From Myxococcus guangdongensis (lineage in GTDB: Bacteria; Myxococcota; Myxococcia; Myxococcales; Myxococcaceae), in the NCBI RefSeq assembly GCF_024198255.1, contig NZ_JAJVKW010000004.1, positions 558,001-622,000 of the forward strand: a stretch of DNA of 64,000 nucleotides. The letters run 5' to 3'. Positions 35,001-59,637 of this stretch are shown one piece after another (positions within the stretch are counted from its first letter, which is position 1; every line of letters begins with the position of its first letter). The translations under genes and the position numbers were made by a program. Below the pieces are notes generated by a model, which was given only the letters and a program-made list of their open reading frames with translations, searched no databases and was not told where the DNA came from.

Positions 35001-37510
35001 TCGTGCTCGGCGAAGGGGAGGGCCGTGAGGTCCAGACGGTGCTGACGCCGGAGGAAGGGCGCACGCACTTCGAGATCTACGGCCAGGGGACAACGGGCGC
35101 CGAGCGGGACTGGGCGCGCCTCGCCCATGGGTACCTCGTGGAGCACCGCGATTCCGCGCGACACGTCGACCTGGAGGCCGGGCTGTTCGAGCGCTTCTCC
35201 CCGCCACGACCCGTCGGACCGTTCTACGAGCTGATGGCCAGGCACGGCATCGAGTACGGCCCCTCGTTCCAGGCCATCGACGCACTGAGGTTCGGGAAGA
35301 ACGCCTGCCTCGCCCATGTCCGGTTGCCCGACAATCAGGTCGTCGGGATGGGCGAGTACCGACTGCACCCCCTCATCCTCGATGCCTGTTTCCAGACCGT
35401 CGCCGCCCTGTTCATGGAGGAGGCCAGCGAGGCGCCGGACCACCGGCAACGGATGCCCGTCGCCATCCAGCGCCTGCGCTGGTTCAAGAAGCCCGGGAGC
35501 AGCGCCTGGGTGCATGCGCGCCACGACGAGCGCGTCTCCGCCTCCGATGAACTCTTGAGCATCGACCTGCGCATCCTCGGGGAGGCGGGGGAGGTCATCG
35601 CGGAGGTCGAGGGGCTGCTGCTGAAGCGCATCGACCGGCGCGCGCTCACGACCTCGTTCTCCGACTCCACGCGGGAGCTGCTCCTCGAGCTGGCGTGGCG
35701 CGAGCTGGACGCCCCTCGGTCACGGGCTCCGGTTCCTCTCCAGTCCCATCGCTGGTTGTTGCTCGCGGACTCGGGCGGCGTCGCGGAGGCGCTGAAGGCG
35801 CAGGTCCAGCGTCACGGTGGAGCGTGTGTGGTGGCGACACCGGACCCGAGCAACGACGCGGACCACGTCCGCGTCGATCCGAAGCACCCGGAGACCTTCG
35901 TTCGACTCCTCCAATCGCTGTCCGAGGAGGGCGCGGCGCCGACGACGGTCGTCTGCCTCTGGGGGCTCGACGAGCCAGGGGGCGAAGCGCTCTCACCAGA
36001 GGCGTTGGTGCGTGCCACCACGCGGAGCGCGACCGGCGTGCTCCACCTGGTGCAGGCCATGGCCCGTGCGAGCTGGGCCCAGCGGCCCGCGCTGTGGTTG
36101 GTGACTCGCGGCGCCGTCGCGGCCGCGCCGGGGGACACCGTGAACGGCCTCGTGCAGTCGATGCTCTGGGGGCTCGGTCGCGCGGCCACCATCGAACACC
36201 CGGAGTTGGGGTGCCGGCTGGTGGACCTGGACGACGGAGAGGACGCGGCCTCGCGGTTGTTCGAGCAGATGACCCGCGCGACAGGGGAGAACCTGCTGGC
36301 GCTGCGAGGCTCGCGGCTCCTCGGAGCTCGGCTCACGCGACCCGGCGCGCCGTCGAACAGCGCCAACCCGATGGGGATCCACGCGGATGGCGCGTATCTC
36401 ATCACCGGAGGACTGGGCGCCCTCGGGCTCGCGACCGCCGCGTGGCTGGTGGAGGCCGGCGCCCGCCAGCTGGTCCTGGTCAGCCGAAGCGCACCGGGAG
36501 ACGCGACGAAGCTCCAACTCGACGAGTTGGGGGCGCGTGGCTGCGACGTCACGGTGGCTCGCGCGGATGTCTCGCGCCCGGACGACGTGCGGCGCGTCCT
36601 GGAGGAACTCTCCGCGAGAGGCACACGCCTGCGAGGCGTCTTCCACGCGGCGGGCGTGCTGGACGATGGCGTGTTCCTGCGGCAGGACCCGGAGCGTCTG
36701 GCGCGCGTGCTCGCGCCCAAGGTGATGGGTGCGTGGAACCTGCATCTCGCGACGGCCGGGCTCCCGCTCGACCTCTTCGTCATGTACTCGTCCGCGGCGT
36801 CGCTCGTCGGAGTCGCCGGGCAGGCCAACTACATGGCCGCCAACACCTTCCTCGACGCGCTGGCGCACCATCGCCGCGCGAAAGGGCTGCCCGCGCTCAG
36901 CGTCAACTGGGGACAGTGGGCCGGCGGAGGAATGGCGCGGAAGGCGAGGGCGCGCGTGTCGACCGCGGACACCCCGGGGCTTCCACCCCAGCGCGCGCTG
37001 CGCATCCTCGAGGAGCTGTTGGGCCGGGACGTCGCGCAGATGGGCGTGGTGCCCGTCGACCCCTCCGCGCTGGAGTCCTCGCTCTCCTCGAGCCATGGCC
37101 CCCTGTTCTCCGAGCTGGCGCTGCGTGAGAAGGAGCCCTCCGCCGGCACGGGGCGGATGGTGGAGCTGCTGGAGGAGTTCACGCGCTCGGATGGCGCGCG
37201 TCGGCGCGGGCTCCTGACGCACTACGTACGAGGCCGGCTGGCGCCCCTGCTGGGGTTCCCGCCGGAGCACGAGGTGCTCCAGAAGAAGATCTCCCTCAAC
37301 GAGATGGGGCTCGATTCGCTGCGCGCCGTCGAGCTGAAGAACCGCATGGGCCGTGAGCTGGGCGTGGACCTGCCCATGGCGCGCTTCATCGACGGAACCG
37401 GTGTCGCCGGAATCGTGGAAGCGGTGCACGAGCAGCTCGAGCTCAGTGAGCTGCTCGCGCGAGCCCCCGTCACCGCCGCGCAGTCCGAGGTCGAGGAGCT
37501 GACGCTATGA
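32015..37510 (+). CDS. Type I PKS module: KS - AT - DH - KR - ACP
   Basis: The 1831-residue protein is a second intact malonate-using, dehydrating module: KS (C202), AT (Ser648 in GHSLG, HAFH), DH (H954 in HRVFGATVLP, D1123), KR (Tyr1606; LDD motif of B-type KRs) and ACP (Ser1768 in GLDS). No enoylreductase lies between DH and KR, so it should make a conjugated double bond. The N-terminus (ISELPAVKLAYLASQL) resembles that of the KS-AT protein at 54992, which suggests shared ancestry or competing docking. It overlaps the terminal NRPS gene by 4 bp, consistent with handing the finished chain to that protein. Confidence 0.94.
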   Translation: MAKLPTRISELPAVKLAYLASQLRAKKDLLAAEPIAVVGMSCRFPGGGELPETFWQFLREGGDATREVPPERWNIDELYDPTPGAKGKVYTRRGAFIENVDLFEPAFFGIPPRDAKDMDPQQRMLLEECWRSLERAGIPPAGLSGSRTGVFVGLMHNDYNVLGITAGVEMHSASLNYPSMAAGRIAHTLGLQGPALTVDTACSSSAVAVHLACQSLRNDESDLALAGGVSLSLSPLTMIFECQNRMLAVDGRCKTFDASADGFSRGEGCGVVVLKRLSDALAQGDSILGVIRGSALNHDGRSSGLMVPNGRAQERVIRMALEGCGVEPEQVSYVEAHGTGTSLGDPIEMEALRSVFGRAPARGSPLWVGSVKTNIGHLEAAAGIAGLIKVLLALRHEAIPAHLHLSRPNPNIRWDDLPVVIPTALQPWPRGEQRRIAGLSSFGFSGTNVHLVVEEAPLQSRPPVARERPVHLLTLSAKTEAALEALVEVHASSLPDEGEVLGDWCYTANVGRSHFEHRAAISGANAAELRAGLSRLRMERSPPRREPRRGTESPRPVFLFTGQGSLRPGVGRELAETWPVFHAAVQRCSAALMGLLEPRLGDILYGEQSLSLLADTRHAQPALVALEYALSELWASWGIVPGAVAGHSLGEYAAAVVAGVLSIEDALSLVVARSRLIHEAPGEGAMLAVNATLEVLAPTLAPVSHLISLAAVNGPQDLVISGDRATLSEVAGRLAREGIACRPLSVTHAFHSPLMEPVVAAFEACFEGVALSTPRLSFVSTLEGGLVSEALTRPAYWCRHLREPVRFAEALETLREQKHRTFLEVGPTPVLTGVGLRVYPGEEELSWLPSLRPASGEAAQMLTALGALYERGFEVDWSAFDAPFERRSVTLPTYPFRRERYWIDSPTEGSMAERRAARASGPLLTGVPLSLAGTKGSRFSARLSTREPSFLAEHRVFGATVLPAACYVEMALGAAHFAAPPEATFELLSFELERPLVLGEGEGREVQTVLTPEEGRTHFEIYGQGTTGAERDWARLAHGYLVEHRDSARHVDLEAGLFERFSPPRPVGPFYELMARHGIEYGPSFQAIDALRFGKNACLAHVRLPDNQVVGMGEYRLHPLILDACFQTVAALFMEEASEAPDHRQRMPVAIQRLRWFKKPGSSAWVHARHDERVSASDELLSIDLRILGEAGEVIAEVEGLLLKRIDRRALTTSFSDSTRELLLELAWRELDAPRSRAPVPLQSHRWLLLADSGGVAEALKAQVQRHGGACVVATPDPSNDADHVRVDPKHPETFVRLLQSLSEEGAAPTTVVCLWGLDEPGGEALSPEALVRATTRSATGVLHLVQAMARASWAQRPALWLVTRGAVAAAPGDTVNGLVQSMLWGLGRAATIEHPELGCRLVDLDDGEDAASRLFEQMTRATGENLLALRGSRLLGARLTRPGAPSNSANPMGIHADGAYLITGGLGALGLATAAWLVEAGARQLVLVSRSAPGDATKLQLDELGARGCDVTVARADVSRPDDVRRVLEELSARGTRLRGVFHAAGVLDDGVFLRQDPERLARVLAPKVMGAWNLHLATAGLPLDLFVMYSSAASLVGVAGQANYMAANTFLDALAHHRRAKGLPALSVNWGQWAGGGMARKARARVSTADTPGLPPQRALRILEELLGRDVAQMGVVPVDPSALESSLSSSHGPLFSELALREKEPSAGTGRMVELLEEFTRSDGARRRGLLTHYVRGRLAPLLGFPPEHEVLQKKISLNEMGLDSLRAVELKNRMGRELGVDLPMARFIDGTGVAGIVEAVHEQLELSELLARAPVTAAQSEVEELTL

Positions 37511-40500
37511 AGATGGGTGAGCTGCTCGCCGAGCTGAATCGGCGGGGCCTCGAGGTCCGTGCGGAGGGCGAGCACCTGAAGCTGCGTGGCCCGAAGGGGG
37601 CCGCGGGCGAAGAGCTCCTCAAGCTGCTCGCCGAGCACAAGCAGGAGCTGCTCGCGTTGCTGCGGGAGCGCCAGCGGGTGGACGAGGAGCGCCCCATCAC
37701 CCCCGTCGCGCGCACGGGACCGGCGCCGCTGTCCTTCGGGCAGCAGCGACTGTGGTTCCTCGACCGGCTGGAACCCGGCGGCTCCACCTACAACCTGGTC
37801 ATGCCCATGCAGGTCGAGGGGCATCTCGACGTGGTGCTCCTGGAGCGCTGCTTCGTCGAAATCCTCCGGCGCCACGAGGTCCTTCGCACGCGCTACGCCG
37901 AGCAGCAGGGCGTCCCGGTGCAGCTCGTCGACCCCGAGCCGCGGCTCGAGTTCGAGGTGATGGACGAGACGGAGGTGTTCGCCTACGAGCCCGGAGGCAC
38001 GGAGGCGTTCCTGCGCCGCGAAGGGGAGCGGCCCTTCGATTTGTCCGAGGGGCCGCTGACCCGCGTGCTCGTCGTCGAACGGGGGGCTCGGGGCCAGTAC
38101 GTCCAGGTCTGCCTGCATCACATCTCGGCGGATGTCTGGGCGCGGGGGCTCATCATCCGCGAGCTGATGGTCCTCTACACGGCCTTCGCCCAGGGGCAGC
38201 CCTCGCCCCTGCCGCCCCTGTCGTTGCAGTACTCCGACTTCGCCATCTGGCAGCGCGGTCATCTGCAGGGCGAGGTCCGCCGAGGACTGGTGGACGCGTG
38301 GAAGCGGCGACTGGCGGGGATGCCTCCGCTGCTGGAGTTGCCCACGGACCGCCCGCGTCCCCGGGTGCAGACCTACACGGGAGGAGAGGTCCGCTTCGAC
38401 GTGGGGCCGGTGCTCACCGAGGCCCTGAAGACCCTGAGCCATGCGGCCAACGCCACGCCCTTCATGGGCATGCTGGGCGCCTTCTTCGTCCTTCTGCACC
38501 GGCTCACCGGACGCGACGACCTGGTCGTCGGCGCCAACTCCATCAACCGGACCCGCACCGAGCTGGAGCCCCTGGTGGGCTTCTTCGTCGACAACCTGGT
38601 GATGCGGGTGGACCTGGGAGGGCGCCCGGGCTTCTCCACCGTGGTGGAGCGCGTCCGGGAGGTGGTGCTCGACGCCTTCGCGCATCAGGACCTGCCCTTC
38701 GACCTCCTCGTCGAGGAGCTGAAGCCCCCGCGCAACCCTGGCTACAACCCGCTGTTCCAGACCGTGTTCTCGTGGACGCGGGCGATGGAGGGCACCCCGG
38801 CGCCGAGCGGGATGAAGATCCTCCCGCTCGAGTTCGAGACCACCACCTCGCGCTTCGACGTCAACCTCTTCGTCGAGGACCACGGCGACCGGCTGACGGT
38901 GCGCTTCGTGTTCAACCGGGGCCTCTTCGACCAGGGCACCTTCCAGCACTACGCCGACTGCTTCCAGCAACTGCTCCAGGGGCTGCTCACCGAGCCCCAG
39001 CGGCCGGTGGGCGAGCTCCCGTTGCTTCCCGCGGAGGCGCGCGAGCGAATCCTCCGGCAGTGGAACGACACGCGAGGGGAGGGCGCCGACGGGCCGTGCC
39101 TGCACGCGCTGTTCGAGGCCCGCGCGGCGGGGACCCCGGATGCCTGCGCGCTCGTCATGGGGGACTGGGAGCTGACCTATGGCGAGTTGGATCAGCGCGC
39201 GGACCGACTCGCGGTGGCGCTGCAGTCGATGGGGGTGGGGCCCGAGACGCGGGTGGGCATCTGCATGGAGCGCTCGCCCCGGTTGATCGTGAGCCTGCTC
39301 GCGGTGCTCAAGGCGGGCGGCGTGTTCCTCGCGCTCGACCCCGACGAGCCGCTCGCGCGACTGCGGCGCATCCTCGACGACGCCCGTCCCGCGGTGCTGC
39401 TCACCTCGGGGACGCACCCGGAGCCGCAGGCCGGCATGAAGGTCCTCCACGTGGACGCGGCGGCGGAGCGACTCCCGGACGCCACCGGTGCGCGCCTGCG
39501 CCACGACGTCACGCCGGACCACCTGGCCTACATCCTCTACACCTCCGGTTCGACGGGCCAGCCGAAGGGCACGGAGGTGACGCACCGGAGCATCGTCAAC
39601 TACCTGAAGTGGAGCGTGCGGACGTACCGGCTCGACGAGGGCACGGGGAGCCCGGTGCTCGGGTCCATCAGCTTCGACGGCACCCTGACCAGCCTCTTCG
39701 CGCCGCTCATCTCCGGGCGCGCGCTCTTCCTTCTTCCACGAGGCCAGGAGCTGGACCTGCTGTCCTCCAGGGACTACCTCGAGCAGGGCTTCAGCTTCAT
39801 CAAGCTGACGCCCTCGCACCTGCGGGCGTTCGACGGGCTGGGGCGGCTGCGCGAGGTGCTCGAGCGCACGAAGGCGCTCGTCCTCGGTGGCGAGGGCCTC
39901 CACGGCGGAGACCTGGAGACGTGGCGCGCCTGGCGCCTCCCCACGCGCGTCATCAACGAGTACGGACCGACGGAGGCCGCCGTCGCGTGCTGCTTCCATG
40001 AGGTGGCCACGGATGGAGCGCCGCTCCCCGAGCGCATCCCCATCGGCAAGCCCATCGGCAACACGGAGCTGTACGTCCTGGACCGCTGGGGACACCCGGT
40101 GCCCGTCGGTGTGTCGGGCGAGCTGTACATCGGCGGTGTGGGACTGGCGCGGGGCTACCTGGGGCGGCCGGACCTGACGGCCGAGCGCTTCGTCCCCAAC
40201 CCCTTCGAGGCGGGAGCGCGGCTGTATCGCACCGGAGACTTGGCCCGGTACCTGCCGGACGGCACCCTCGAGTTCCTCGGGAGACTGGACGACCAGCTCA
40301 AGATTCGGGGTCACCGCGTCGAGTCCGGAGAGGTGGAGGCCGCCCTCGCGCGGCACCCGAAGGTCACCCACGCCGCCGTGGTCTTGCAGCGCTCCGCTCC
40401 GGGACAGGAGCCGCGCCTCGTCGCCTACGTCCAACCCTCGGAGCCGCGACTCCCGGGTGAGGCGCTGGAGAACGTGCTGCGCAAGTTCCTCCAGGAGGAG

Positions 40501-41805
40501 CTCCCCGAGTACATGCGGCCATCGGTCCTCCTCATCCTCGATGCGCTGCCGCTCACGTCCAGCGGCAAGGTCGACCGCAAGGCGCTCCCCGCCCCGCACG
40601 CGGGACCACGGGAGAGGGGGCTCTCGGTGCGCGAGACAGGTGTGCTGACCGACACGGAGCAGAAGCTCCAAGCCCTCTTCCGCGAGCTGCTGGGACTCGA
40701 CGCCGTGGCTCCCGGCGACAGCTTCTTCGACCTGGGCGGGCACTCGCTGCTCGCCGTCACCCTCATCGCTCGCATCCGGAGCGTGCTGGACGTGGAGGTC
40801 CCCCTCAACGAACTCTTCGAGCGCCCCTCGGTGGAAGGACTCGCCCGGTGGGTCGACGCACAGGCCGGAGTGCTCGCCCCGCGCTTGCCTGATGGGGTGG
40901 TGGCGCTGAGGCCGAAGGGGCGCAAACCGCCGCTGTTCGTCGCGCCTCCCTCCGCGGGCAACCCGGCCGTCTATGTCTCGCTCACCCGACACCTGAGCCC
41001 CGAGCAACCTGTCTTCGGCTTCCAGATGCCGGGGCTGCTGGACGACAGCGCCCCCAGGGCCACCATCGAAGAAGCGGCGACGCACTACGTGGACGTCATG
41101 CGGCGGATGCAGCCCCATGGGCCCTATCGCCTCGCGGGGTGGTCCTTCGGCGGCATCGTCGTGTGCGAGATGGCGCGCCAGCTCGAGGCTCAGGGAGAGC
41201 AGGTCGCGCTGCTCGGCCTGATTGATGGCGCCTCGCTCGACCGCAAGGCCGCGCAGGACAGCCAGGACCTCCGACAAGCGGTCTCCACGGGCTCGCAGCT
41301 CGTGAAGGTGCTCACGCAGACGCCGCTGCCGCGTGACTACGAGAACTTCCGGCTCGTGGGTGAGTGGATGGGCATCAGCCTCCCCGAGGCGCCCAAGGAC
41401 CTCTGGCGCAAGGACTCGGGCGGTCGGCGCACGTACCTGCGCAGGTTCCTGAAGGACGTGGCGCGAACGGCGCGGAACATGTTGGTCACCCTGCGGGCGG
41501 AGCGCTCCTACACCTTCACCGCGTATGGGGGCCGCGCCACGCTCTTCCGGGCCGAGCCCCCCAGCGAAGGGCGGGATTCGCTGGTCGACAGCGTGCGCAG
41601 GTTCGCGCCCAATGGCTTGCAAGTCATCGTGGTCCCCGGCAATCACATGACACTCGTCATGGATGAGAAGAACGCCGCGGTGCTGGCCTCACGGCTCCAG
41701 CAATGCCTGGACGCGGTCGCGCCCGGAATGCCCGCTCAAGAACCCCCTCGGGCGCTCCTGCCCGCGAATGGGTGGAATGCGCAGTTCTCGAAGGAGGTCG
41801 CGTGA
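37507..41805 (+). CDS. Terminal NRPS: TubC-type docking - C - A (Asn-like code) - PCP - thioesterase
   Basis: The 1432-residue protein condenses one amino acid to the polyketide and releases the product. Residues 1-55 form a TubC-type docking domain. C is at about 75-500 with H204, H205 and D209 (HHxxxD intact; the following Gly is Val). A is at about 520-1020 with TSGSTGQPKG at 679 and pocket code DGTKVGEVAK, close to the asparagine code DLTKLGEVGK. PCP Ser1080 lies in LGGHS. A type I thioesterase at about 1125-1400 has Ser1213 in GWSFGG and H1380 in GNHM. All catalytic residues seen are intact. Release as free acid or amide cannot be told from sequence. AAGGAGG just before the stop is the ribosome site of the patatin gene. 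Confidence 0.93.
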   Translation: MKMGELLAELNRRGLEVRAEGEHLKLRGPKGAAGEELLKLLAEHKQELLALLRERQRVDEERPITPVARTGPAPLSFGQQRLWFLDRLEPGGSTYNLVMPMQVEGHLDVVLLERCFVEILRRHEVLRTRYAEQQGVPVQLVDPEPRLEFEVMDETEVFAYEPGGTEAFLRREGERPFDLSEGPLTRVLVVERGARGQYVQVCLHHISADVWARGLIIRELMVLYTAFAQGQPSPLPPLSLQYSDFAIWQRGHLQGEVRRGLVDAWKRRLAGMPPLLELPTDRPRPRVQTYTGGEVRFDVGPVLTEALKTLSHAANATPFMGMLGAFFVLLHRLTGRDDLVVGANSINRTRTELEPLVGFFVDNLVMRVDLGGRPGFSTVVERVREVVLDAFAHQDLPFDLLVEELKPPRNPGYNPLFQTVFSWTRAMEGTPAPSGMKILPLEFETTTSRFDVNLFVEDHGDRLTVRFVFNRGLFDQGTFQHYADCFQQLLQGLLTEPQRPVGELPLLPAEARERILRQWNDTRGEGADGPCLHALFEARAAGTPDACALVMGDWELTYGELDQRADRLAVALQSMGVGPETRVGICMERSPRLIVSLLAVLKAGGVFLALDPDEPLARLRRILDDARPAVLLTSGTHPEPQAGMKVLHVDAAAERLPDATGARLRHDVTPDHLAYILYTSGSTGQPKGTEVTHRSIVNYLKWSVRTYRLDEGTGSPVLGSISFDGTLTSLFAPLISGRALFLLPRGQELDLLSSRDYLEQGFSFIKLTPSHLRAFDGLGRLREVLERTKALVLGGEGLHGGDLETWRAWRLPTRVINEYGPTEAAVACCFHEVATDGAPLPERIPIGKPIGNTELYVLDRWGHPVPVGVSGELYIGGVGLARGYLGRPDLTAERFVPNPFEAGARLYRTGDLARYLPDGTLEFLGRLDDQLKIRGHRVESGEVEAALARHPKVTHAAVVLQRSAPGQEPRLVAYVQPSEPRLPGEALENVLRKFLQEELPEYMRPSVLLILDALPLTSSGKVDRKALPAPHAGPRERGLSVRETGVLTDTEQKLQALFRELLGLDAVAPGDSFFDLGGHSLLAVTLIARIRSVLDVEVPLNELFERPSVEGLARWVDAQAGVLAPRLPDGVVALRPKGRKPPLFVAPPSAGNPAVYVSLTRHLSPEQPVFGFQMPGLLDDSAPRATIEEAATHYVDVMRRMQPHGPYRLAGWSFGGIVVCEMARQLEAQGEQVALLGLIDGASLDRKAAQDSQDLRQAVSTGSQLVKVLTQTPLPRDYENFRLVGEWMGISLPEAPKDLWRKDSGGRRTYLRRFLKDVARTARNMLVTLRAERSYTFTAYGGRATLFRAEPPSEGRDSLVDSVRRFAPNGLQVIVVPGNHMTLVMDEKNAAVLASRLQQCLDAVAPGMPAQEPPRALLPANGWNAQFSKEVA

Positions 41806-42905
41806 TGCCGCACCGAATCCTGTCAATGGATGGTTCCTCCATCTCTGGAGGGGAGGGCTATGTCACCACGGGCATGCTCGGAGCGCTCCGACAGACGCTC
41901 GACGCGGGAGGAGACCGGCGGGCCCTGCTCGGTCAGGTGGACCTCTTCGTGGGCACGTCCGCGGGCTCGTTCAACGCGGCCTTCTTCGCCAGCGCGGCGG
42001 ACCCGGACACCGCCTACGACCTGAGCCTCCAGTTCTGGGGTGAGGCCGTCGCCATGAACAAGAAGGGCGTGTCCCTGGGACGCACCCTGCTGGCGCTGAC
42101 GGGCGCCAGCTCGTTCCTCGACTCGAACTACATGCGCGACTTCCTGGGCGGCTACTTCGGGATGACGACGCGGCTGGGGGACCTGAAGCGCAAGGTCGTC
42201 ATCCCGAGCTTCCAGCTCGATGGACAGCGCAAGGGCGTGCGGACGTGGAAGTCGAAGATCTTCCACAACACCGGCCCGGAGAACGACCCGGACCTGAACG
42301 AGCTGCTCATCGATGTCCTGATGCGCAGCGGCTCGCCTCCGCTCTCCTATCCCATCTACCAGGGGTTCAAGGAGCGGGGCAGCGGCTACGTGGATGGTGG
42401 GCTCTTCGCCAACAACCCCGCGCTCGTGGGGCTGGCGCAGGCCATCAACAACAGCTCCCGCAAGAACAAGCACGAGCAGGTGGACACGCTGGCGACCGAG
42501 CCGCCCAGCCTGGACTCCATCCTGGTGCTGTCCATGGGCAACGGCATCATGTCCTCCTATCTCTCGCCCACCTTCCGAAGCGGAGAGTCCAACTGGGGCT
42601 TCGCCCGGTGGCTGTTGGACACGCGAGATCCGATGGTGCTGGTGAAGATGTTGCTGGAGGCTGGCTCGGACGCAGTGAACTACCAGTGCCGGATGATCCT
42701 CCGGAAGAAGTACCTCCGGTTGGATCCCATCGTGGAGCAGCGCATCTCCGCCTACGACGCGCGACAGGTCGAGGCGGCGCTGGTCCAGCTGCTGAGCCAG
42801 CAGTCCACCATGGACCAGCTCCAGCGCACGCGGCACTGGCTCGAGAAATCCGGCTGGCTGGGAGACTCGCTGCAGGACACGCAGCCCTCACAGGTGGGGA
42901 CCTGA
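41805..42905 (+). CDS. Patatin-like phospholipase/acyl hydrolase
   Basis: The 366-residue protein has the patatin Ser-Asp dyad: S52 in GTSAG (50-54) and D197 in the VDGG motif, with the substrate-side FANNPA following. Patatins are lipid acyl hydrolases. The usual Gly-rich oxyanion motif at the N-terminus is modified to DGSSISGGEGY. The ATG shares its first base with the NRPS stop (TGATG) and has AAGGAGG upstream, so it is coupled to the thioesterase-containing gene. No signal peptide is visible. A hydrolase here might edit stalled chains, trim or acylate the product, or act on membrane lipid, but none of this is shown by sequence. It forms a coupled cassette with the next two genes. Confidence 0.88.
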   Translation: MPHRILSMDGSSISGGEGYVTTGMLGALRQTLDAGGDRRALLGQVDLFVGTSAGSFNAAFFASAADPDTAYDLSLQFWGEAVAMNKKGVSLGRTLLALTGASSFLDSNYMRDFLGGYFGMTTRLGDLKRKVVIPSFQLDGQRKGVRTWKSKIFHNTGPENDPDLNELLIDVLMRSGSPPLSYPIYQGFKERGSGYVDGGLFANNPALVGLAQAINNSSRKNKHEQVDTLATEPPSLDSILVLSMGNGIMSSYLSPTFRSGESNWGFARWLLDTRDPMVLVKMLLEAGSDAVNYQCRMILRKKYLRLDPIVEQRISAYDARQVEAALVQLLSQQSTMDQLQRTRHWLEKSGWLGDSLQDTQPSQVGT

Positions 42906-44035
42906 TGACGCGGCTCCTCCTGGTCGCGGGAAGCGGCGGCGCGGGCCGGACGACGGTGGCGGCGGCGACAGGCCTGGCGGCCTCGCGTCGGGGCCAGCGC
43001 ACGTTGGTCCTCTCCGTCGACGCCTCCCGAGACCTGAGCGGTGTCCTGGGCCAGGTGCCGCCGACGCTCCCGGAGGGCCGGGGGCTGCCGGTTCGCATCG
43101 AGGACCACCTGCACCTCCAAGAGCTCGACATCGCGTCGGAGCTGAAGCGCCGCTGGAGCGAGGGCCGTGGCGAGGTGGCCGCGCTGCTCGGCGGTGGCTT
43201 GGAGGGCGTGACGGCGGAGGAGGTGGCGCTCACGCCGGGGTTGGAGGTGTTGCTGGCGCTCCTCCTGCTCGGCGAGTACAGCCGCGCGCGGACGTACGAC
43301 CTCATCGTCATCGATGCGGGGGACGCGCTGCGCTTCGTCGGTGGCGCGGATGCCGTGGGCTGGTATGCGCGCAGGTCGAGGGCGCCGAAGCAGAGCGCTC
43401 GGCGGGTGAGGCCGTCGCGCGCGAACCCGGAGGTCCTCCACGGGGTCAGTGACAAGCTGATGGACGTGGGCGCGCTGCTGAGAGCGCCCACGGTGACGAG
43501 CGTGCGGTGGGTGACCACGCATGACCACCGGACCGAGCAGAGCCTCCGGAGGGCGCGCGCGACGTTCGGCCTGCAAGGCGTTGCCCTGGACGGAGTCATC
43601 CTCAATCGCCTCGCGCTGGTCGGGGAGGACGCGGCCCTCGCCCGGCACCCCTCGGTGGAGAACCTGCAACACCTCGTCGGCTCCATCCCGGTGACAGGGG
43701 TTGCGCTCCAGGGGCGAGACATCGTCGGGGAGGAGGCGCTCGAGGCCTTCGCGACGCTGCTGTACCGAGGTGAAGACCCGGCGCGGCTCGGGAGCACGCA
43801 TCCCAGCCTGGGCGTCGGCAAGCAGGCCGTGGATGTGTACACGCTGGAGGTCCAGCTCCCCTTCGTGCGCAAGGAGGAGGTCTCGCTCTCCCGGCGCGAG
43901 GCGGAGCTCGTCATCCAGGCAGGTGCCTTCCGGCGCAACGTCCTGCTCCCCAGGATGGTCGCGCCACTCGCCACCACAGGGGCGAGCCTGGAGGGCGACA
44001 GACTCGTCGTCGAGTTCAAGAAAGAGAGGGTTTGA
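42905..44035 (+). CDS. ArsA/Get3 (TRC40)-family ATPase-like protein with altered P-loop and C-terminal HSP20-like domain
   Basis: The 376-residue protein has the ArsA/Get3 SIMIBI NTPase layout. The P-loop, canonically GKGGVGKTT, reads GSGGAGRTT at residues 9-17, so both the signature Lys (S10) and the catalytic Walker Lys (R15) are lost. The switch-like DLIVIDAGDALRF and VSVDASRDL keep the fold. The last 65 residues (YTLEVQLPFV..., VVEFKK) match the HSP20-like domain found at the C-terminus of bacterial ArsA-like ATPases. Bacterial Get3-type proteins are thought to chaperone hydrophobic clients. ATP hydrolysis is doubtful without the Lys. It overlaps the patatin stop (TGATG) and ends 2 bp before the next gene, so all three are co-expressed. 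A role for a hydrophobic polyene or the megasynthase is speculation. Confidence 0.8.
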   Translation: MTRLLLVAGSGGAGRTTVAAATGLAASRRGQRTLVLSVDASRDLSGVLGQVPPTLPEGRGLPVRIEDHLHLQELDIASELKRRWSEGRGEVAALLGGGLEGVTAEEVALTPGLEVLLALLLLGEYSRARTYDLIVIDAGDALRFVGGADAVGWYARRSRAPKQSARRVRPSRANPEVLHGVSDKLMDVGALLRAPTVTSVRWVTTHDHRTEQSLRRARATFGLQGVALDGVILNRLALVGEDAALARHPSVENLQHLVGSIPVTGVALQGRDIVGEEALEAFATLLYRGEDPARLGSTHPSLGVGKQAVDVYTLEVQLPFVRKEEVSLSRREAELVIQAGAFRRNVLLPRMVAPLATTGASLEGDRLVVEFKKERV

Positions 44036-44037
44036 AC

Positions 44038-44520
44038 ATGGTCTGGCAGAAGAGGCGTTTGCCGAAGGACTTCTTCCGGTTGGAGACGCAGCCCGAGGAA
44101 GGGGCCCGGGTCGCGGAGGTCGTCGACGCCGTGATTCCAGGAGGGAAGGGCTTCATCCAGCAGCTCTTCCGCGCGAAGAAGGACGTGCTGCAGGCTGTCT
44201 CGCATCTGCTCCAGGCGCAGATCCACGAGCTGGAGCACATCGACTCGGCCATCCGGGGCGAGTACCGGCCGGGCGCCGCCGGGACAGGTGCTTCGTGCAC
44301 GGAGCCGCCGCTCAGCCCGCGCATGATGACCATCAAGCAGATGATGGAGGAGGCCAGCGCGAAGCTCCGTGGGGAGAAGGTCGTCCATCCCCACGCGCCG
44401 GGCGCCGCGTGTCCTCCGGTCCAGCCCACGCATGGCGCGGTGGAGAGCCCCAGGAGCACGGAAGGTGAGCCGGGCAGCCGCCCCGGCGCCACGGGTCCGG
44501 AGAAGATCACGCTCACCTGA
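44038..44520 (+). CDS. Small protein of unknown function, helical N-terminus and Pro/Gly-rich tail
   Basis: I do not recognise this 160-residue protein. Residues 1-75 look helical and mixed-charge (PGGKGFIQQLFRAKKDVL, then QIHELEHIDSAI), and residues 93-110 form another possible helix starting MMTIKQMMEE. The C-terminal third is Pro/Gly/Ser-rich and probably disordered. There is no signal peptide, membrane helix or cysteine motif. The ATG was chosen over an in-frame TTG six bases upstream because GAGAGGG sits about 7 bp before it. It follows the Get3-like gene after only 2 bp, which suggests a partner or client of that protein. It does not look like a RiPP precursor, although a radical SAM gene lies 3 kb downstream. 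Confidence 0.7.
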   Translation: MVWQKRRLPKDFFRLETQPEEGARVAEVVDAVIPGGKGFIQQLFRAKKDVLQAVSHLLQAQIHELEHIDSAIRGEYRPGAAGTGASCTEPPLSPRMMTIKQMMEEASAKLRGEKVVHPHAPGAACPPVQPTHGAVESPRSTEGEPGSRPGATGPEKITLT

Positions 44521-44566: not shown

Positions 44567-44584
44567 GGTGGGCACGGACCCACC
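44567..44584. repeat. Hairpin GGTGGG-N6-CCCACC in a 95-bp gap inside the operon
   Basis: A perfect 6-bp stem (44567-44572 with 44579-44584) and a 6-nt loop lie in the only gap of note inside the operon, between the small unknown gene and the MT-KR-ACP gene. There is no T-run, so it is not a standard terminator. It could mark an RNA processing or stability site separating expression of the two operon halves. Confidence 0.25.
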
Positions 44585-44615
44585 GCGTGCGAGGTGTCGT
44601 CGAGGAGGCGGTCTC

Positions 44616-47417
44616 ATGGGACAAGAGGGACAGGGACGTATCCTCGCGGAGCGACTCGCCGCGCTTTCGCCCGAGCGCAGGGCGTTGCTGGAGCTGGCGC
44701 TGAAGAGGACTCCGGCACCTCGTGTGTCGGGTCCTCGTCCTGGCCTGGACGTGTTGCTCCAGGAGGGGACGGAGGACTTCGCGACGTTGGCGCCGTTCCC
44801 GGAGGTCGCCGCGTCGTTCTCCTGGGTGCTCGCGGCGCGGGGGCCGCGGACGGATGAGCAGGCCCGGCTCCTGGAGGACGCGCACCGCGAGCTGCGCGGG
44901 GCGCTGTTCAGGGCGGTGGACCTCACCGCGTGTGAGCGAGTCCTCGGCTTCGGGGGCGGTGACGGCCGCGAGTGGGTGTCGCTGGCCCGAAGGCCTGGGA
45001 CGTTCCGAATCATCGGCCATGCGTCCTCACCCCGGGACGTGGAGGCGGCCCGCGAGCGCGTGCGCACCCATGCGCTGGAGGACCGTCTCCAGGTCATGAC
45101 GGGTGGGCTGGACTCCGATGCCCTGGAGGCGGGCTTCGATGTCGCCTTCGGACTGGAGGCCCTCGGCCCTCCGGAGGAGCGGGGCGCTCTCTTCACCGCC
45201 TTGGGAAAGAAGGTCCGGGAGGGTGGGCGACTGGTCCTCGGGGACGTGTTCCTGAAGTCGGGGCTCGCACCGCCGCACGTCGAGCGACTGTCGCTGCCGC
45301 TCATCGAGGAGCTGGGGACCTGGCTCACGACGAATGGCTTCCTCGTCGTGGACTGCGTGGACGCGGCCCGCGAGATGGGGAACTTCCTCCACGAGCCCGC
45401 GATGGACGCGCGCCTGTCGCAGCTCGGCTGGGGGGGCGAGGACGCGCGTGCGCAGGTGGCGCGGGCGTACGAGGTGATGGGGGGGCTGCTCCGCGGAGGC
45501 GCGGCGGCCTATCTGCTGCTGACCGCCGAGAAGCGCGGTGGGCTGGAGCCTCGACAACTGGAGGCGCTGAACCGCGAGCGACTGACGCAGGCGACTCCGT
45601 ACGCCGAGCTTCCGCACGCGTGGCTGTATGCGCCCAGGTGGCGGCCCGTCGCGAGTCCTTCGCGTGTGCATGAGTCCACCTCGTCGCCCGGGCACTGTCT
45701 GGTCTTCGCCGACAAGGGCGGGCTGGGCGAGGCGCTCTCGCGGCGCGTGGGCGAGGCGGGAGGACGCTGCACCTTCGTCCACCGGGGCGAGGTGTTCCGA
45801 CAGCGTGAGGACGGCGGTTACGAGGTGCCCACGCGGAACCCGGAGTCGTTCCTCCGGTTGATGGAGTCGCTGTCCGCCGCGGAGCTCGTGCCTTCCCACG
45901 TCGTCTATCTATGGAGCCTCGATGTGCCTGAGCCGGAGGGCCTGTCGGTCGCCCAGCTCCAGGACGAGACGCTCGATGCGTGCGGTGGCCTGCTGTATCT
46001 CGCCCAGGCCCTGCTCACGGCGGGCGCGAGCCATCCGGCCTCGCCTTCACTCTGGATGGCCACGCGGGGCGCTCAGCGCGCCGATGACACGGGGGGGCTC
46101 CCGGGCCTGTTGGGGGCTCCGCTCTGGGGACTGGGGAAGGCCATCGCCTATGAGCACCCGGAGCTCGACTGCCGCCGGGTGGACCTGGATCCTCAGCGCG
46201 ACCTCGAGGACGGTGCGCAGGCGCTGTGGACGGAGCTGCGCTCTCGCGACGAAGAGGACCAGGTCCTGTTGCGCGAGGGACGTCGTCACGTGCTGCGGTT
46301 GTCCCGGCATCGGCAGTGGGACTGGGAAGGCGCGGGACGCCTCCAGTTCAAGGCGGACGCCACCTACCTGGTGACAGGAGGGCTGGGCGGACTGGGCCTC
46401 CAGGTGGCGCGGTGGATGGTGGAGCGGGGCGCACGCAACCTGGTGCTCCTGGGGCGCAAGCGGGCCAGTGACGTGTCCGCCGAGGAGGTGAAGGAGATGC
46501 GCGCCCGGGGCGCGGCCATCATCTCGCTCGCGGGTGTGTCGGTGGACTCGGACCTCGACTTCGTGATGGCGGGCATCTCGAAGCGGATGCCGCCGCTGCG
46601 GGGCATCATCCACGCGGCGACGGAGGTGGACGACGGCATCCTCGTGCACCAGACGCGCGAGCGCCTGGGCCGGGTGTTCGCGGCGAAGGTCTCCGGCGCC
46701 TGGAATCTGCACCGGTGGCTCGCGGGCACACCGTTGGATTTCTTCTTCTCGCTGTCCTCCTCCACGTCGTTGATGGGCGCCTCGGGGCAGGGCAACCACC
46801 TGGCGGCGACGGCCTTCCTGGACGGGCTCGCCGAGTACCGCCGCTCCCAGGGACTGCCCGGGCAGAGCTCGAGCTGGGGCGCCTGGACGCAGCCTGGTGA
46901 CGAGACGCAGGCGGCGCTGGACGCGCGCATGCGCAAGCGAGGCGTGGGCCTGGTGCCGACGCAGCAGGCGTTCGCCATCCTGGAGCAGGTGTTCGGCCCG
47001 ATGCCGGCGGTGGTCGGGGTGATGCCCATCCATTGGCCCACCTTCCTCGGCGGCCTTCCCGGTGACGGCCCTCCGCCGTTGTTCGCGGACTTCGGCGGGG
47101 AGGCGGGCGCGGGCCACGCGGGCGCAGAGCTGAGGCGCGAGCTGCTGCGTCGCGTGCGCCAGGGTTCCGCGGAGGACGGGCGGAGCGCGGTGCTCGAGTG
47201 GTTCCGCGCGCGCGTGGCGAAGGTGTTGGAGCTGGGCGCCACCCAGCTCCCGGAGCCCGAGCAGTCCCTGCACGAGCTCGGGCTCGACTCCCTGATGGGC
47301 GTGGAGCTCAAGAAGCTGCTGCACGCGGAGCTGCAGGTGGAGTTCCCCCTCCAGGAGTTGTTGGGGGGCAAGAGCATCGGCGAGCTGTCGGGTTCTCTCT
47401 ACGAAGCCCTGCGTTGA
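44616..47417 (+). CDS. Type I PKS fragment: C-methyltransferase - KR - ACP (no KS or AT)
   Basis: The 933-residue protein starts with a docking-like helix (LAERLAALSPERRALLELAL). Residues about 60-330 form a SAM-dependent methyltransferase with motif I degenerate to VLGFGGGDGRE near 108-118. A KR with GGLGGLG near 589-595 follows, but His728 sits at the catalytic Tyr position in GQGNHLAAT. The ACP has Ser892 in GLDS. Without KS and AT it cannot extend a chain alone. The docking helix suits the C-terminus of the KS-AT protein at 54992-57826 (LEQLTDEQVQALL), so the two may form one split methylating module. The ATG at 44616 follows GAGGAGG; earlier in-frame starts lack a ribosome site. If MT and KR are inactive it may act only as an ACP. 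Confidence 0.87.
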   Translation: MGQEGQGRILAERLAALSPERRALLELALKRTPAPRVSGPRPGLDVLLQEGTEDFATLAPFPEVAASFSWVLAARGPRTDEQARLLEDAHRELRGALFRAVDLTACERVLGFGGGDGREWVSLARRPGTFRIIGHASSPRDVEAARERVRTHALEDRLQVMTGGLDSDALEAGFDVAFGLEALGPPEERGALFTALGKKVREGGRLVLGDVFLKSGLAPPHVERLSLPLIEELGTWLTTNGFLVVDCVDAAREMGNFLHEPAMDARLSQLGWGGEDARAQVARAYEVMGGLLRGGAAAYLLLTAEKRGGLEPRQLEALNRERLTQATPYAELPHAWLYAPRWRPVASPSRVHESTSSPGHCLVFADKGGLGEALSRRVGEAGGRCTFVHRGEVFRQREDGGYEVPTRNPESFLRLMESLSAAELVPSHVVYLWSLDVPEPEGLSVAQLQDETLDACGGLLYLAQALLTAGASHPASPSLWMATRGAQRADDTGGLPGLLGAPLWGLGKAIAYEHPELDCRRVDLDPQRDLEDGAQALWTELRSRDEEDQVLLREGRRHVLRLSRHRQWDWEGAGRLQFKADATYLVTGGLGGLGLQVARWMVERGARNLVLLGRKRASDVSAEEVKEMRARGAAIISLAGVSVDSDLDFVMAGISKRMPPLRGIIHAATEVDDGILVHQTRERLGRVFAAKVSGAWNLHRWLAGTPLDFFFSLSSSTSLMGASGQGNHLAATAFLDGLAEYRRSQGLPGQSSSWGAWTQPGDETQAALDARMRKRGVGLVPTQQAFAILEQVFGPMPAVVGVMPIHWPTFLGGLPGDGPPPLFADFGGEAGAGHAGAELRRELLRRVRQGSAEDGRSAVLEWFRARVAKVLELGATQLPEPEQSLHELGLDSLMGVELKKLLHAELQVEFPLQELLGGKSIGELSGSLYEALR

Positions 47418-47437
47418 GATTCGCAAAGGAGTGGAAC

Positions 47438-49462
47438 GTGTCTGGTGATTCCGTTCAGGTCCGCTTCGTCGTCGCTCCCTTCCTCCCCGAACACCAGCCC
47501 GCGCTGGGCGTGAGCACGCTGATAGGGGTGCTCGGGAGGAGCGGCATCCAGGCGGATGTCCGCTACCTCAACGTCCAGTTCATGCGACAGATTGGGTGGG
47601 AGCTCTACTACTACCTCTCCTACGCCACGCCCCCGGAGATCCTCGCGGGGGAGATGGCCTTCCTCCCGGCCTCGCCGGACTTGTTGTTGGGGGAGATGGT
47701 CTTCGCTCCGGCGCTGTGGGGAGACGCGGCCTCGAACTGGGAGGAGTACGCGGACCGCCTGACCCCGCTGCTGGAGGTGAAGCAGCACACGGAGGGCGCC
47801 ACCTCGGGAGGCGCGCGGCGTGAGCAGGCGTTGCATTGGGGACGCGCCCGCGAGCTCATTCGCGCCCTGCGTGAGGACAGCCCTCGTATCGTCAGGCAGT
47901 GGGCGCAGGACATCCTCGCGGACAAGCCGCGTGTCATCGGCTTCACCTCGACGTTCCAGCAGAGCGTCGCCTCGCTCGCGTTGGCGAAGGAGCTGCGCCG
48001 GCTGCTCCCGCGCGAGGAGCTGACGCTCATCATGGGGGGCGCCAACTGCGAGGCCGACATGGGCAAGGCGCTCTCGGACAACTTCCCCTTCATGGACCAC
48101 GTGGTCTCGGGGGAGGGCGAGGGCGTCATCGTCGACCTGGTCAAGGGCGTGCTGGATCGTCGGAGCGGACGCCCGCAGCCTCGCTACGTGGCCGCGCCGC
48201 CATTCGAAGCCATGGACACGCTGCCGATGCCGGACTTCGACCACTACTTCGACGCCATCAAGGACATGCCGATGGCCAAGCGCGCCAACCTGACGGCGGA
48301 GTCGTCGCGGGGCTGCTGGTGGGGAGCCAAGTCGCACTGCACCTTCTGCGGCCTCAACGGCTCCGGCATGGCGTACCGGAGCAAGGACCCGGGGCGCTTC
48401 GTCCAGGAGCTGCGCACGCTGGCGGGGCGCTACGGCTTCAACTTCTTCATGATGGCCGACAACATCCTGGACCTGAAATACATCAAGTCGGTGTTCCCCG
48501 CGCTCATCGAGCAGGGGGATGAAATCACCATGTTCTATGAGACGAAGAGCAACCTCCGGAAGGATCAGCTCGAGCTCATGGTCGCCGGTGGTGTCACCGA
48601 GTTGCAGCCGGGCATCGAGAGCCTCAGCACGCCCATCCTCGAGCTGATGGACAAGGGCACCACGCGCCTGCAGAACATCCAGCTCATCAAGTGGTGCGAG
48701 GAGTTCGACATCAACGTGAACTGGAACATCCTCTTCGGCTTCCCGGGCGAGGCACCCGAGGAGTACGCGGAGATGGCCCGGCTGATGCCCTCGCTGGTCC
48801 ATCTGCCGCCGCCTGGGGGATGCGGGCGCATCCGCATGGACCGGTTCGCGCCGTATTGGAAGACGCCGGAGAAGTACAACCTCAAGAACGTCCGCCAGAA
48901 GTGGGCGTATGACTATGTCTACGCCGCGCTGCCCGCTGAGGAGCGCCGGCGCATCGCCTACTACTTCGACTACGACCTCGAGGGCGACATCGACCCGACG
49001 GTCTATCTCCAGGACACGCTGAAGCGGACCGAGGAGTGGCGCGACGGGTACAGCCGCGGTGTGACGCTCGAGCTGAAGACGCGCGATGGCGTGTCCCATG
49101 TGCTGGACACGCGGGGCGGGACATCACTGGAGACGGCGGTGACGGTGGACGGTGTCCGGCTGTTGAAGGCGATGGACTCCATCCAGAGTGCTCGCGTCGG
49201 GCTCGAGAAGGTGAACGAGTCGCGAGAGGGAGGCCCGATGTCCGCGGCGGACTTCGACGCGATGCTCGCGCGGTTCCTGGAGTGGGGTTGGGTCATCCGC
49301 GAGGGCGCGAAGCACCTGAGCCTCGTGCTCGACCGCACGGAGCGCCAGCGCATCATCGACCTGAAGATGGCCGCGCAGCTGGGCACCATCGACTGGGCCC
49401 GTCTGGGGGCCAGGCCCGCCGTGAGCCCTGGCCCCGCGCAGCTCGTCGCCTCTTCGACCTAG
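47438..49462 (+). CDS. B12-binding radical SAM enzyme, RiPP-maturation C-methyltransferase-like family
   Basis: The 674-residue protein has an N-terminal cobalamin-binding-like Rossmann region (about 1-260, with VIGFTSTFQQS and MGGANCEA) and a radical SAM domain. The [4Fe-4S] cysteines are C293, C301 and C304, spaced CX7CX2C within RGCWWGAKSHCTFCGLNG. That spacing and the WWG signature are typical of the radical SAM family annotated as RiPP maturation radical SAM protein 1. The start is GTG at 47438 with AAAGGAG seven bases upstream; the frame is open further up but that part overlaps the PKS gene. It sits inside the operon between two PKS genes, with no precursor peptide visible. It may C-methylate or otherwise modify the polyketide or an amino-acid unit at an unactivated carbon. 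Confidence 0.85.
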   Translation: MSGDSVQVRFVVAPFLPEHQPALGVSTLIGVLGRSGIQADVRYLNVQFMRQIGWELYYYLSYATPPEILAGEMAFLPASPDLLLGEMVFAPALWGDAASNWEEYADRLTPLLEVKQHTEGATSGGARREQALHWGRARELIRALREDSPRIVRQWAQDILADKPRVIGFTSTFQQSVASLALAKELRRLLPREELTLIMGGANCEADMGKALSDNFPFMDHVVSGEGEGVIVDLVKGVLDRRSGRPQPRYVAAPPFEAMDTLPMPDFDHYFDAIKDMPMAKRANLTAESSRGCWWGAKSHCTFCGLNGSGMAYRSKDPGRFVQELRTLAGRYGFNFFMMADNILDLKYIKSVFPALIEQGDEITMFYETKSNLRKDQLELMVAGGVTELQPGIESLSTPILELMDKGTTRLQNIQLIKWCEEFDINVNWNILFGFPGEAPEEYAEMARLMPSLVHLPPPGGCGRIRMDRFAPYWKTPEKYNLKNVRQKWAYDYVYAALPAEERRRIAYYFDYDLEGDIDPTVYLQDTLKRTEEWRDGYSRGVTLELKTRDGVSHVLDTRGGTSLETAVTVDGVRLLKAMDSIQSARVGLEKVNESREGGPMSAADFDAMLARFLEWGWVIREGAKHLSLVLDRTERQRIIDLKMAAQLGTIDWARLGARPAVSPGPAQLVASST

Positions 49463-58383: not shown

Positions 58384-58591
58384 CTAGTGTTCCCCTGATG
58401 GCCCGGTTGGGGCTGACGAAGTGGCTAACGATAAAAGACGAGGTCTTGGTGCCCTGTGGCCCTCGATTCAGGGGGCTCTTGGTCTCCCGAGTCCCGAAAC
58501 CAGGATGCCGAGTCCGGCGGCCGGGACGCTCATTCTTGCCTGGGTGGATTCGCTCCCATGGGGTTCACTTCGTGTATGGATTCGGCATGCA

Positions 58592-58633
58592 CTGGGTTGG
58601 TTGTGGCGCAAATCATGTGAGCAACCAACCCAG
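58592..58633. repeat. 12-bp perfect inverted repeat with 18-nt loop
   Basis: CTGGGTTGGTTG at 58592-58603 pairs exactly with CAACCAACCCAG at 58622-58633. The stem is 12 bp and the loop 18 nt. It lies 94 bp before the PPIase start and has no following T-run. It could be a terminator-like hairpin for transcripts entering from either side, an operator, or a leader structure. Confidence 0.4.
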
Positions 58634-58726
58634 CGCGACCTTGAATTGACCCTGGCACCTGTCACAAGGTGCGCGTCCATTTGTCAGGTATCGAACTGCG
58701 ATGGGTCGACGGGGAGCTTTCCTGAA

Positions 58727-59617: not shown

Positions 59618-59637
59618 GGGCGTGGTCGGGAGCGTCT

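Follow-up and report, generated by a model that had tools for sequence, protein, structure and literature searches.

In a 64,000-nucleotide stretch of the genome of Myxococcus guangdongensis (contig NZ_JAJVKW010000004.1, positions 558,001 to 622,000; hereafter the window), three coupled genes lie among genes for nonribosomal peptide synthetase (NRPS) and polyketide synthase (PKS) proteins. They encode a patatin (PAT), a Get3/ArsA ATPase with an alpha-crystallin domain (GET) and a small protein of 160 amino acids (aa; SML), and their order, PAT-GET-SML, is kept in 23/23 orthologous clusters, the window included. An earlier note on this DNA had described them as following a thioesterase (TE) gene through TGATG, TGATG and 2-bp junctions, and all three junctions are as described (TE/PAT, TGATG; PAT/GET, TGATG; GET/SML, TGA-AC-ATG, a gap of 2 bp). 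What is surprising in this trio is the tail-bearing partner of an alpha-crystallin Get3 protein, not the broken P-loop of the ATPase. Its features are as follows, with models by AlphaFold2 (AF2).

41805-42905, plus strand: PAT, predicted patatin-like acyl hydrolase, 366 aa (PF01734, 4.9e-20)
41829-41870, plus strand: PAT oxyanion stretch DGSSISGGEG, residues ~9-22, replacing the patatin DGGG
41958-41960, plus strand: PAT predicted nucleophile Ser52 (GTSAG); G[TS]SAG in 23/23 orthologues
42393-42395, plus strand: PAT predicted catalytic Asp197 (VDGG); VDGG in 23/23 orthologues
42905-44035, plus strand: GET, 376 aa, ATPase with a Get3d-like fold and an alpha-crystallin domain at its C-terminus (Pfam, AF2 model, structural alignment)
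42929-42955, plus strand: GET degenerate deviant Walker A GSGGAGRTT, residues 9-17 (orthologue alignment)
43805-44020, plus strand: GET alpha-crystallin (ArsA_HSP20) domain, residues ~301-372 (PF17886; strands in the model)
44038-44520, plus strand: SML, 160 aa, small helical protein that ends in a linker of low model confidence and a tail (AF2 single-sequence model)
44092-44253, plus strand: SML conserved helices, residues 19-72 (mean pairwise identity 0.71, 23 orthologues)
44500-44517, plus strand: SML C-terminal IxI-like tail E-K-I-T-L-T, residues 155-160 (orthologue alignment)

A Get3d-like ATPase and a small protein with a tail

GET matches PF02374 (101.9 bits) and, as the earlier note had recognized in speaking of an HSP20-like C-terminus, the ArsA_HSP20 family PF17886 (63.1 bits against a cut-off of 22.5; 1.8e-17). 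Among solved structures NosGet3d (All4481) is closest to it in sequence, and its best-scoring NCBIfam family is NF050088 (NosAFP), at 97.0 bits and below the cut-off of 325 bits. In structural alignments, residues 2-374 of the AF2 model (mean predicted local distance difference test, pLDDT, 80.5; predicted template modelling score, pTM, 0.82) match NosGet3d (3igf; Z 31.3, root-mean-square deviation (rmsd) 3.0, 320 residues aligned), and further matches are found to 8egk (Z 31.1, rmsd 3.5, 326 aligned) and to AtGet3d (8elf; Z 26.2, rmsd 4.4, 338 aligned). Because the NosGet3d alignments cover this whole length, whereas those to archaeal TRC40 (3zq6; Z 30.3, residues 1-291 only) and yeast Get3 (Z ~27) both stop near residue 290, the modelled protein has the Get3d fold, alpha-crystallin domain included, and its reading as a new type of ATPase is not supported. 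As regards a hydrophobic client chamber for tail-anchored proteins, such as Get3d has, the segment after W-Y comprises 38 aa, 9 of them Arg or Lys; residues 162-172 have a pLDDT below 50, so the model is weak here. Since the protein stops directly after the alpha-crystallin domain, 4 residues past its end, GET brings no tail, and the model has no IxI tail of its own. When four regions of GET are compared among the 23 orthologues, this domain comes out as the most alike, with a mean pairwise identity of 0.72 (vs 0.52-0.62).

SML, in turn, ends in such a tail. Its last residues read E-[KR]-[IF]-x-[LIP] in 23/23 orthologues and [KR]-[IV]-x-[ILV] in 20/23, and the E-K-I columns stand at identities of 1.00, 0.91 and 0.83 after a linker with a mean of 0.27. 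The single-sequence AF2 model has helices at residues 19-32 and 36-72, a block with pLDDT mostly at 81-90, and past residue ~79 consists mostly of low-confidence chain, save a short helix at 99-110; with a mean pLDDT of 61.6 it is weak evidence.

The earlier note had made the altered P-loop the key feature of the cassette, with both the signature and the Walker lysines lost. Both are indeed missing from GSGGAGRTT in the window, and the signature Lys is gone in 21/23 orthologues (Ser in the window; retained in loci L079 and L080). The Walker Lys, however, has become Arg in two proteins only, those of the window and of its 89% relative (genome G003, locus L039), and we rejected the double loss as a defining feature because this residue is retained in the other 21/23. 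The same two proteins have three residues deleted in switch II, and the switch I Asp is replaced in L050, L051, L077 and L078. As read from the alignment, the catalytic decay of GET is graded, and the double P-loop loss is late and local. The degenerate P-loop suggests that the window GET has probably lost ATPase activity. The intradimeric (signature) Lys is described as conserved in Get3d (PMC10248533); because it is lost here, we call GET Get3d-like and not a Get3d equivalog. Two actinobacterial GET proteins (L314 and L315, from genomes of 9.2 and 9.7 Mb) carry GPGGSGRT, with both P-loop lysines replaced, and their partner ends in RIDLD.

Tail-bearing reading frames beside other Get3 genes

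Tail-bearing small proteins are also encoded beside alpha-crystallin Get3 genes of distant organisms. Loci were picked by PF17886 score only, and an open reading frame (ORF) was counted when it had 40-260 aa, started between -60 and +130 from the GET stop and carried [KRH][IV]x[IVL] in its last 8 residues. Such an ORF follows GET in 25/30 loci in the phylum of Saccharopolyspora (the best-scoring 30 of a longer list), in 6/9 in that of an Archaeoglobaceae archaeon and in 7/18 in that of Aminicenantes, phyla which we take to be Actinomycetota, Halobacteriota and Acidobacteriota, respectively. After ArsA-type genes there was none in 59 loci (L207-L265), 36 of them with a candidate ORF; these controls are weaker matches among those listed, and their lack of an alpha-crystallin domain was not verified one by one. 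The comparison of 38/57 with 0/59 (Fisher 1e-16) is to be read loosely, because the loci are related and not phylogenetically independent. In the background, the same pattern occurs in the last 8 residues of 1/249 and 2/452 ORFs of at least 250 aa, and the looser pattern [IV].[IVL] in 10/249 and 50/452. The seed loci L271 and L267 were left out of the 38/57, as were L342 and L344, whose 157-aa frames have the size of a small heat-shock protein (sHSP); the near misses L289, L303, L309, L336, L337 and L340 were scored negative.

A scan of named genomes gave 21 GET-type loci (L186-L206) among the matches listed, and nine of the 20 that no contig end truncates have a motif-bearing ORF right after GET (L186, L189, L190, L191, L192, L203, L204, L205 and L206), with ~10 and 15 further residues past the motif in L204 and L206, respectively. 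The hosts of these nine include an Archaeoglobaceae archaeon, Aminicenantes and actinobacteria. In the helix, a hidden Markov model (HMM) of the SML orthologues matches the L186 partner at E 2.9e-5, and the partner HMM matches the best of the SML orthologues, that of L078, at E 7e-5 (both with Z=100). The partner after the L314 GET, which ends in QRIDLD, matches DUF5304 (PF17230) over the whole model at 1.5e-70, and the partners of L286 and L288 reach 3e-4, below the cut-off. SML itself matches no Pfam family at E 0.01, PF17230 included, and no NCBIfam family at E 1. The earlier note had called the small protein unrecognised; it is nevertheless no orphan, given the tail-bearing ORFs after alpha-crystallin Get3 genes in several phyla, and its sequence seems to place it in a widespread and so far undescribed group of tail-bearing partners of these proteins.

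Among chosen neighbours only, the GET genes of Pseudonocardia and Saccharopolyspora lie near genes for AMP-binding proteins, glycosyltransferases, acyltransferases and hydrolases, and that of L190 near FabD/FabH/FabG-like genes, for which we give no statistic. In another myxobacterial family, L182 has in a row (8829-9600) GET, a tail-bearing ORF ending in HRIRISE and a PHB_acc_N gene, encoding a regulator of polyhydroxyalkanoate accumulation, which suggests a link to storage granules. L184 carries a full GET gene at 9606-10790 on the minus strand, and L185 (9772-10233, minus strand) has the C-terminal half of GET alone, beside two genes resembling those downstream of the full gene; this half is probably a remnant.

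The probable pigment cluster, the patatin and related clusters

By Pfam, the trio is flanked upstream by an NRPS gene with condensation (C), adenylation (A), peptidyl carrier protein (PCP) and TE domains, and on both sides by PKS genes, whose domains include ketosynthase (KS), acyltransferase (AT), dehydratase (DH), ketoreductase (KR), methyltransferase (MT) and acyl carrier protein (ACP).

37507-41805, plus strand: NRPS C-A-PCP module with terminal thioesterase (NRPS-TE), directly 5' of the trio (Pfam)
49472-54970, plus strand: KS-AT-DH-KR-ACP PKS of the same cluster, 3' of the trio in 23/23 clusters

One and the same set of 23 genomes, out of 96 in the family, carries orthologues of NRPS-TE (at least 67% identity; next listed matches at most 47%), PAT (at least 65% identity) and SML. 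Besides the window, 16 genomes of its genus and six from three more genera have the trio in this order behind the orthologous NRPS-TE. The earlier note had offered absence of the cassette from all related clusters as grounds for giving up its idea; the cassette is present in all 23 orthologous clusters. An apparent PAT-GET fusion in L054 (a 753-aa frame) was rejected, as a TAG stop lies inside the match. Directly after the trio, 12/23 clusters, the window among them (44568-49462), have genes for an MT-KR-ACP PKS protein and a radical SAM protein; the other 11 (L046-L054, L077 and L078) lack them at that place, and their presence or absence is a likely source of product differences between the clusters. 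Two consecutive genes for PPIC-type peptidyl-prolyl isomerases follow the PKS genes of the cluster (58421-60537).

The DKxanthene genes of M. xanthus are MXAN_4289-4305 (PMC3986340), a range that includes MXAN_4295, called a patatin-like phospholipase (PMC6627406, PMC3222651). From this position and from the gene content, which comprises upstream minus-strand genes for an acyl-CoA dehydrogenase and an AMP-ligase as well as KS-AT-DH-KR modules, the window cluster is very probably that of the yellow pigment DKxanthene. By eye, the specificity residues of the terminal A domain are D-G-T-K-V-G-E-V and resemble the code for Asn (D-L-T-K-L-G-E-V), the amino acid from which the end group of DKxanthenes derives. 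By gene order alone, GET is probably MXAN_4294 and SML MXAN_4293, the latter entered as a 'hypothetical protein' (PMC3222651). In the literature searched we found no paper that treats DKxanthene and patatin together. All Myxococcus species are said to have the cluster (PMC13218925), and it is present in 17/27 genomes of the same genus and missing in 10, where the genus as delimited here may exceed Myxococcus. Two genomes that consist of a single contig, of 9.0 and 9.3 Mb, have the cluster at 5.26 Mb, and a third, G017, has it at 3.19 Mb.

PAT scores 73 bits against PF01734 (cut-off 27.7), and the motifs of the Ser-Asp dyad are intact in 23/23 orthologues. The oxyanion stretch is DG[ST][SP][IV]SGG in the 23 orthologues, whereas the PAT relatives of L142, L143 and L145 have DGGG. 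Its nearest solved structures are of the patatin/CapV type (1.3e-9). Near the named loci L186-L206, no PAT homologue was found among the matches listed (tblastn, E 1e-3). A patatin 60% identical to PAT is encoded in L140 (4537-5616, minus strand), with no GET, SML or PKS matches within 20 kb.

Outside this cluster the trio recurs in a changed order, as GET, an 82-aa protein and a PAT relative, beside a different NRPS/PKS gene in G080 (L142). In G082 and G072, PAT relative and GET stand at opposite ends of NRPS/PKS-like stretches of ~50 and 34 kb, which are broken by gaps of ~2 kb, and in G071 both lie near NRPS genes on separate contigs. The four GET proteins have an intact GKGGVGKT (4/4), and the small ORF after GET ends in SIPIE (G080), SKITVD (G082) and TKVGIK (G071). 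Among the 73 family genomes without a DKxanthene-type cluster, these four encode a full-length alpha-crystallin GET and all of them also a PAT relative, which occurs in 6/73 (in G083 and G045 without GET; Fisher 1.4e-5 for the co-occurrence).

Proposed pairing, alternatives and known systems

In sHSPs, the beta4/beta8 pocket of an alpha-crystallin domain takes up the IxI/V tail of a partner, and BAG3 binds there in trans through its IPV motifs (PMC6119766). By analogy, we propose that SML is a dedicated partner of GET, whose IxI-like tail, borne on a long and probably disordered linker, would dock in trans into the beta4/beta8 pocket of GET, and we consider this docking fairly likely. GET and SML would then amount to a split sHSP, with the domain on the one protein and the tail on the other, and docking would tether the helical segment of SML, the proposed binder of hydrophobic surfaces, to GET. 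With its degenerate P-loop, the window GET may act as an ATP-independent scaffold or holdase, while PAT would be an active acyl hydrolase that attacks lipid or acyl chains in the same place. The trio would form a DKxanthene accessory module around a Get3d-type chaperone with a decaying ATPase, which would hold the nearly water-insoluble pigment in dispersion and assist in placing it in the cell envelope. The idea of the earlier note, a chaperone that serves a very hydrophobic product, is plausible, and the trio supplies candidate handling proteins for DKxanthenes; that it does handle the pigment is possible, though we would not count on it. We lean towards the broader view that alpha-crystallin Get3 proteins of bacteria and archaea use a dedicated family of partners that plug an IxI tail into them in trans, and that this pair, with a patatin, was recruited into several myxobacterial polyketide clusters, where the ATPase can decay while the contact between tail and domain stays. 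Taken as a whole, from accessory module through tail docking and holdase to pigment handling, the explanation is a serious candidate that we put forward tentatively.

In a purified outer-membrane fraction of M. xanthus, MXAN4295 was detected with 6 peptides and MXAN4293 with 4 (PMC3222651), and the same paper cites an earlier study with MXAN4293 in the outer membrane. DKxanthenes are reported from outer-membrane vesicles and described as essential for viable spores (PMC4158809), and they are said to be nearly insoluble in water (PMC13218925). The outer-membrane data, the vesicle location and the insolubility fit pigment handling at the envelope and do not prove causation.

Several results weigh against the proposed pairing and its role. 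Two comparisons give GET a ratio of nonsynonymous to synonymous substitution rates (dN/dS) of 0.31 and 0.47, where PAT and NRPS-TE have ~0.20, and in the closest pair the alpha-crystallin domain is under no extra constraint (0.42 vs 0.30 for the rest of GET); together with the domain identity, these values mean that GET is relaxed yet still constrained. Three of the 23 SML orthologues have Pro at the motif end (RIKP, KFKP and KFKP), and the window SML reaches only E 0.0043 (Z=100) with the partner HMM and a probability of 60% with hhalign. G072 has GET and PAT and no SML after GET. An adjacent tail-bearing ORF is missing in 11/20 of the named loci among the matches listed, under the strict pattern in 11/18 acidobacterial loci, and in all of 29 loci from cyanobacteria, to which Nostoc belongs, although 15 of these have some candidate ORF; because so many loci lack one, the alpha-crystallin domain needs no tail-bearing ORF in cis. 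The assignment of GET and SML to MXAN_4294 and MXAN_4293 is one of gene order only. PMC3222651 labels MXAN4293 and MXAN4295 beta-barrels, which agrees with neither fold, and contamination of the outer-membrane fraction is therefore possible; MXAN_4294 is missing from both of the tables consulted. No mutant phenotype for the trio genes was found in the literature searched.

Other explanations have been weighed against the pairing. The trio might be biosynthetic, with PAT as an editing or trans-acting acyl hydrolase, or an acyltransferase, for the PKS, which a scaffold of GET and SML docks on the megasynthase. PAT does follow the thioesterase gene directly and its relatives adjoin NRPS/PKS genes in other clusters; the first KS-ACP protein lacks an AT at E 1e-8 and the second has a fragmentary AT match only. 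However, PAT matches the patatin model and not an AT model, tail-bearing ORFs follow alpha-crystallin Get3 genes in archaea and other phyla, and the genes listed around L203 are by eye unlike a PKS, so that we regard this explanation as unlikely, if worth keeping in mind. Alternatively, the SML tail may be functional with an ordinary sHSP or another protein as its receptor. The sHSP-sized proteins of L342 and L344 bear the same kind of tail (ending in KAITIEVK), and frames of sHSP size often show low-scoring matches to PF17886 in the phylum, yet the tail-bearing ORF stands right after alpha-crystallin Get3 genes (38/57 under the strict pattern) and never after ArsA-type genes (0/59), which makes a receptor other than GET improbable. 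Still less probable is that GET is a decaying remnant without current function, of which PAT and SML are independent: the loss of both P-loop lysines and the switch II deletion in the window and G003, the replaced switch I Asp and the highest dN/dS of the four genes compared would agree with it, whereas GET is open in 23/23 clusters, its dN/dS is below 1 and the alpha-crystallin domain is its region of highest identity. Finally, we rejected a defence island built on a CapV-like immune phospholipase as highly improbable, despite the CapV-type structures and a PADLOC effector match of PAT (5.8e-27), because PAT reaches only 79.5 of the 200 bits required for the CBASS_lipase family NF041079 (of cyclic-oligonucleotide-based antiphage signalling systems, CBASS), neither GET nor SML has a PADLOC match at E 0.001 and the scanned neighbours are mostly biosynthetic.

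The Get3d paper calls the role of the alpha-crystallin domain unclear and states that targeting partners would have to be new (PMC10248533). If the proposed pairing of GET and SML holds, the domain would be a docking site, a specific and quickly testable answer. Work on Get3d in photosynthetic lineages would have missed the partner because the cyanobacterial genes have no such neighbour. The pairing would also provide the first hypothesis for DUF5304, a term that we did not find in the literature searched.

Among known systems, the CapV-type CBASS phospholipases resemble PAT in patatin family, effector match and nearest solved structures, and differ from it in that PAT falls under the CBASS_lipase cut-off and has its own oxyanion sequence in place of the DGGG of its relatives in L142, L143 and L145. 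The DKxanthene cluster of M. xanthus agrees with that of the window in gene content and in the position of its patatin; the window and 11 other clusters have the additional MT-KR-ACP PKS and radical SAM genes after the trio, unlike the remaining 11. DUF5304 is tied to SML by the L314 partner and its QRIDLD end, although the link goes via intermediates, as SML itself has no Pfam match. With Get3d (NosGet3d/All4481, 3IGF and 8EGK; AtGet3d, 8ELF), GET shares the Get3 core and the C-terminal alpha-crystallin domain, in a structural match over the full length, and NosGet3d has Arg at the Walker Lys position as the window GET does (PMC10248533). The window GET differs by the loss of the conserved intradimeric Lys, by the three-residue switch II deletion and, with regard to the GET of L142, by a shorter, Arg-rich segment where the latter has a longer one. 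Its host is a myxobacterium, and it has a small partner gene, which adjoins none of the 29 loci in the phylum of Nostoc. Like the IxI/V tails of sHSPs and the IPV motifs of BAG3, SML has a short I-x-I/V-like element on an extension; here, however, the tail belongs to a small protein of its own, whose gene adjoins that of the Get3-type ATPase on which the tail may dock.

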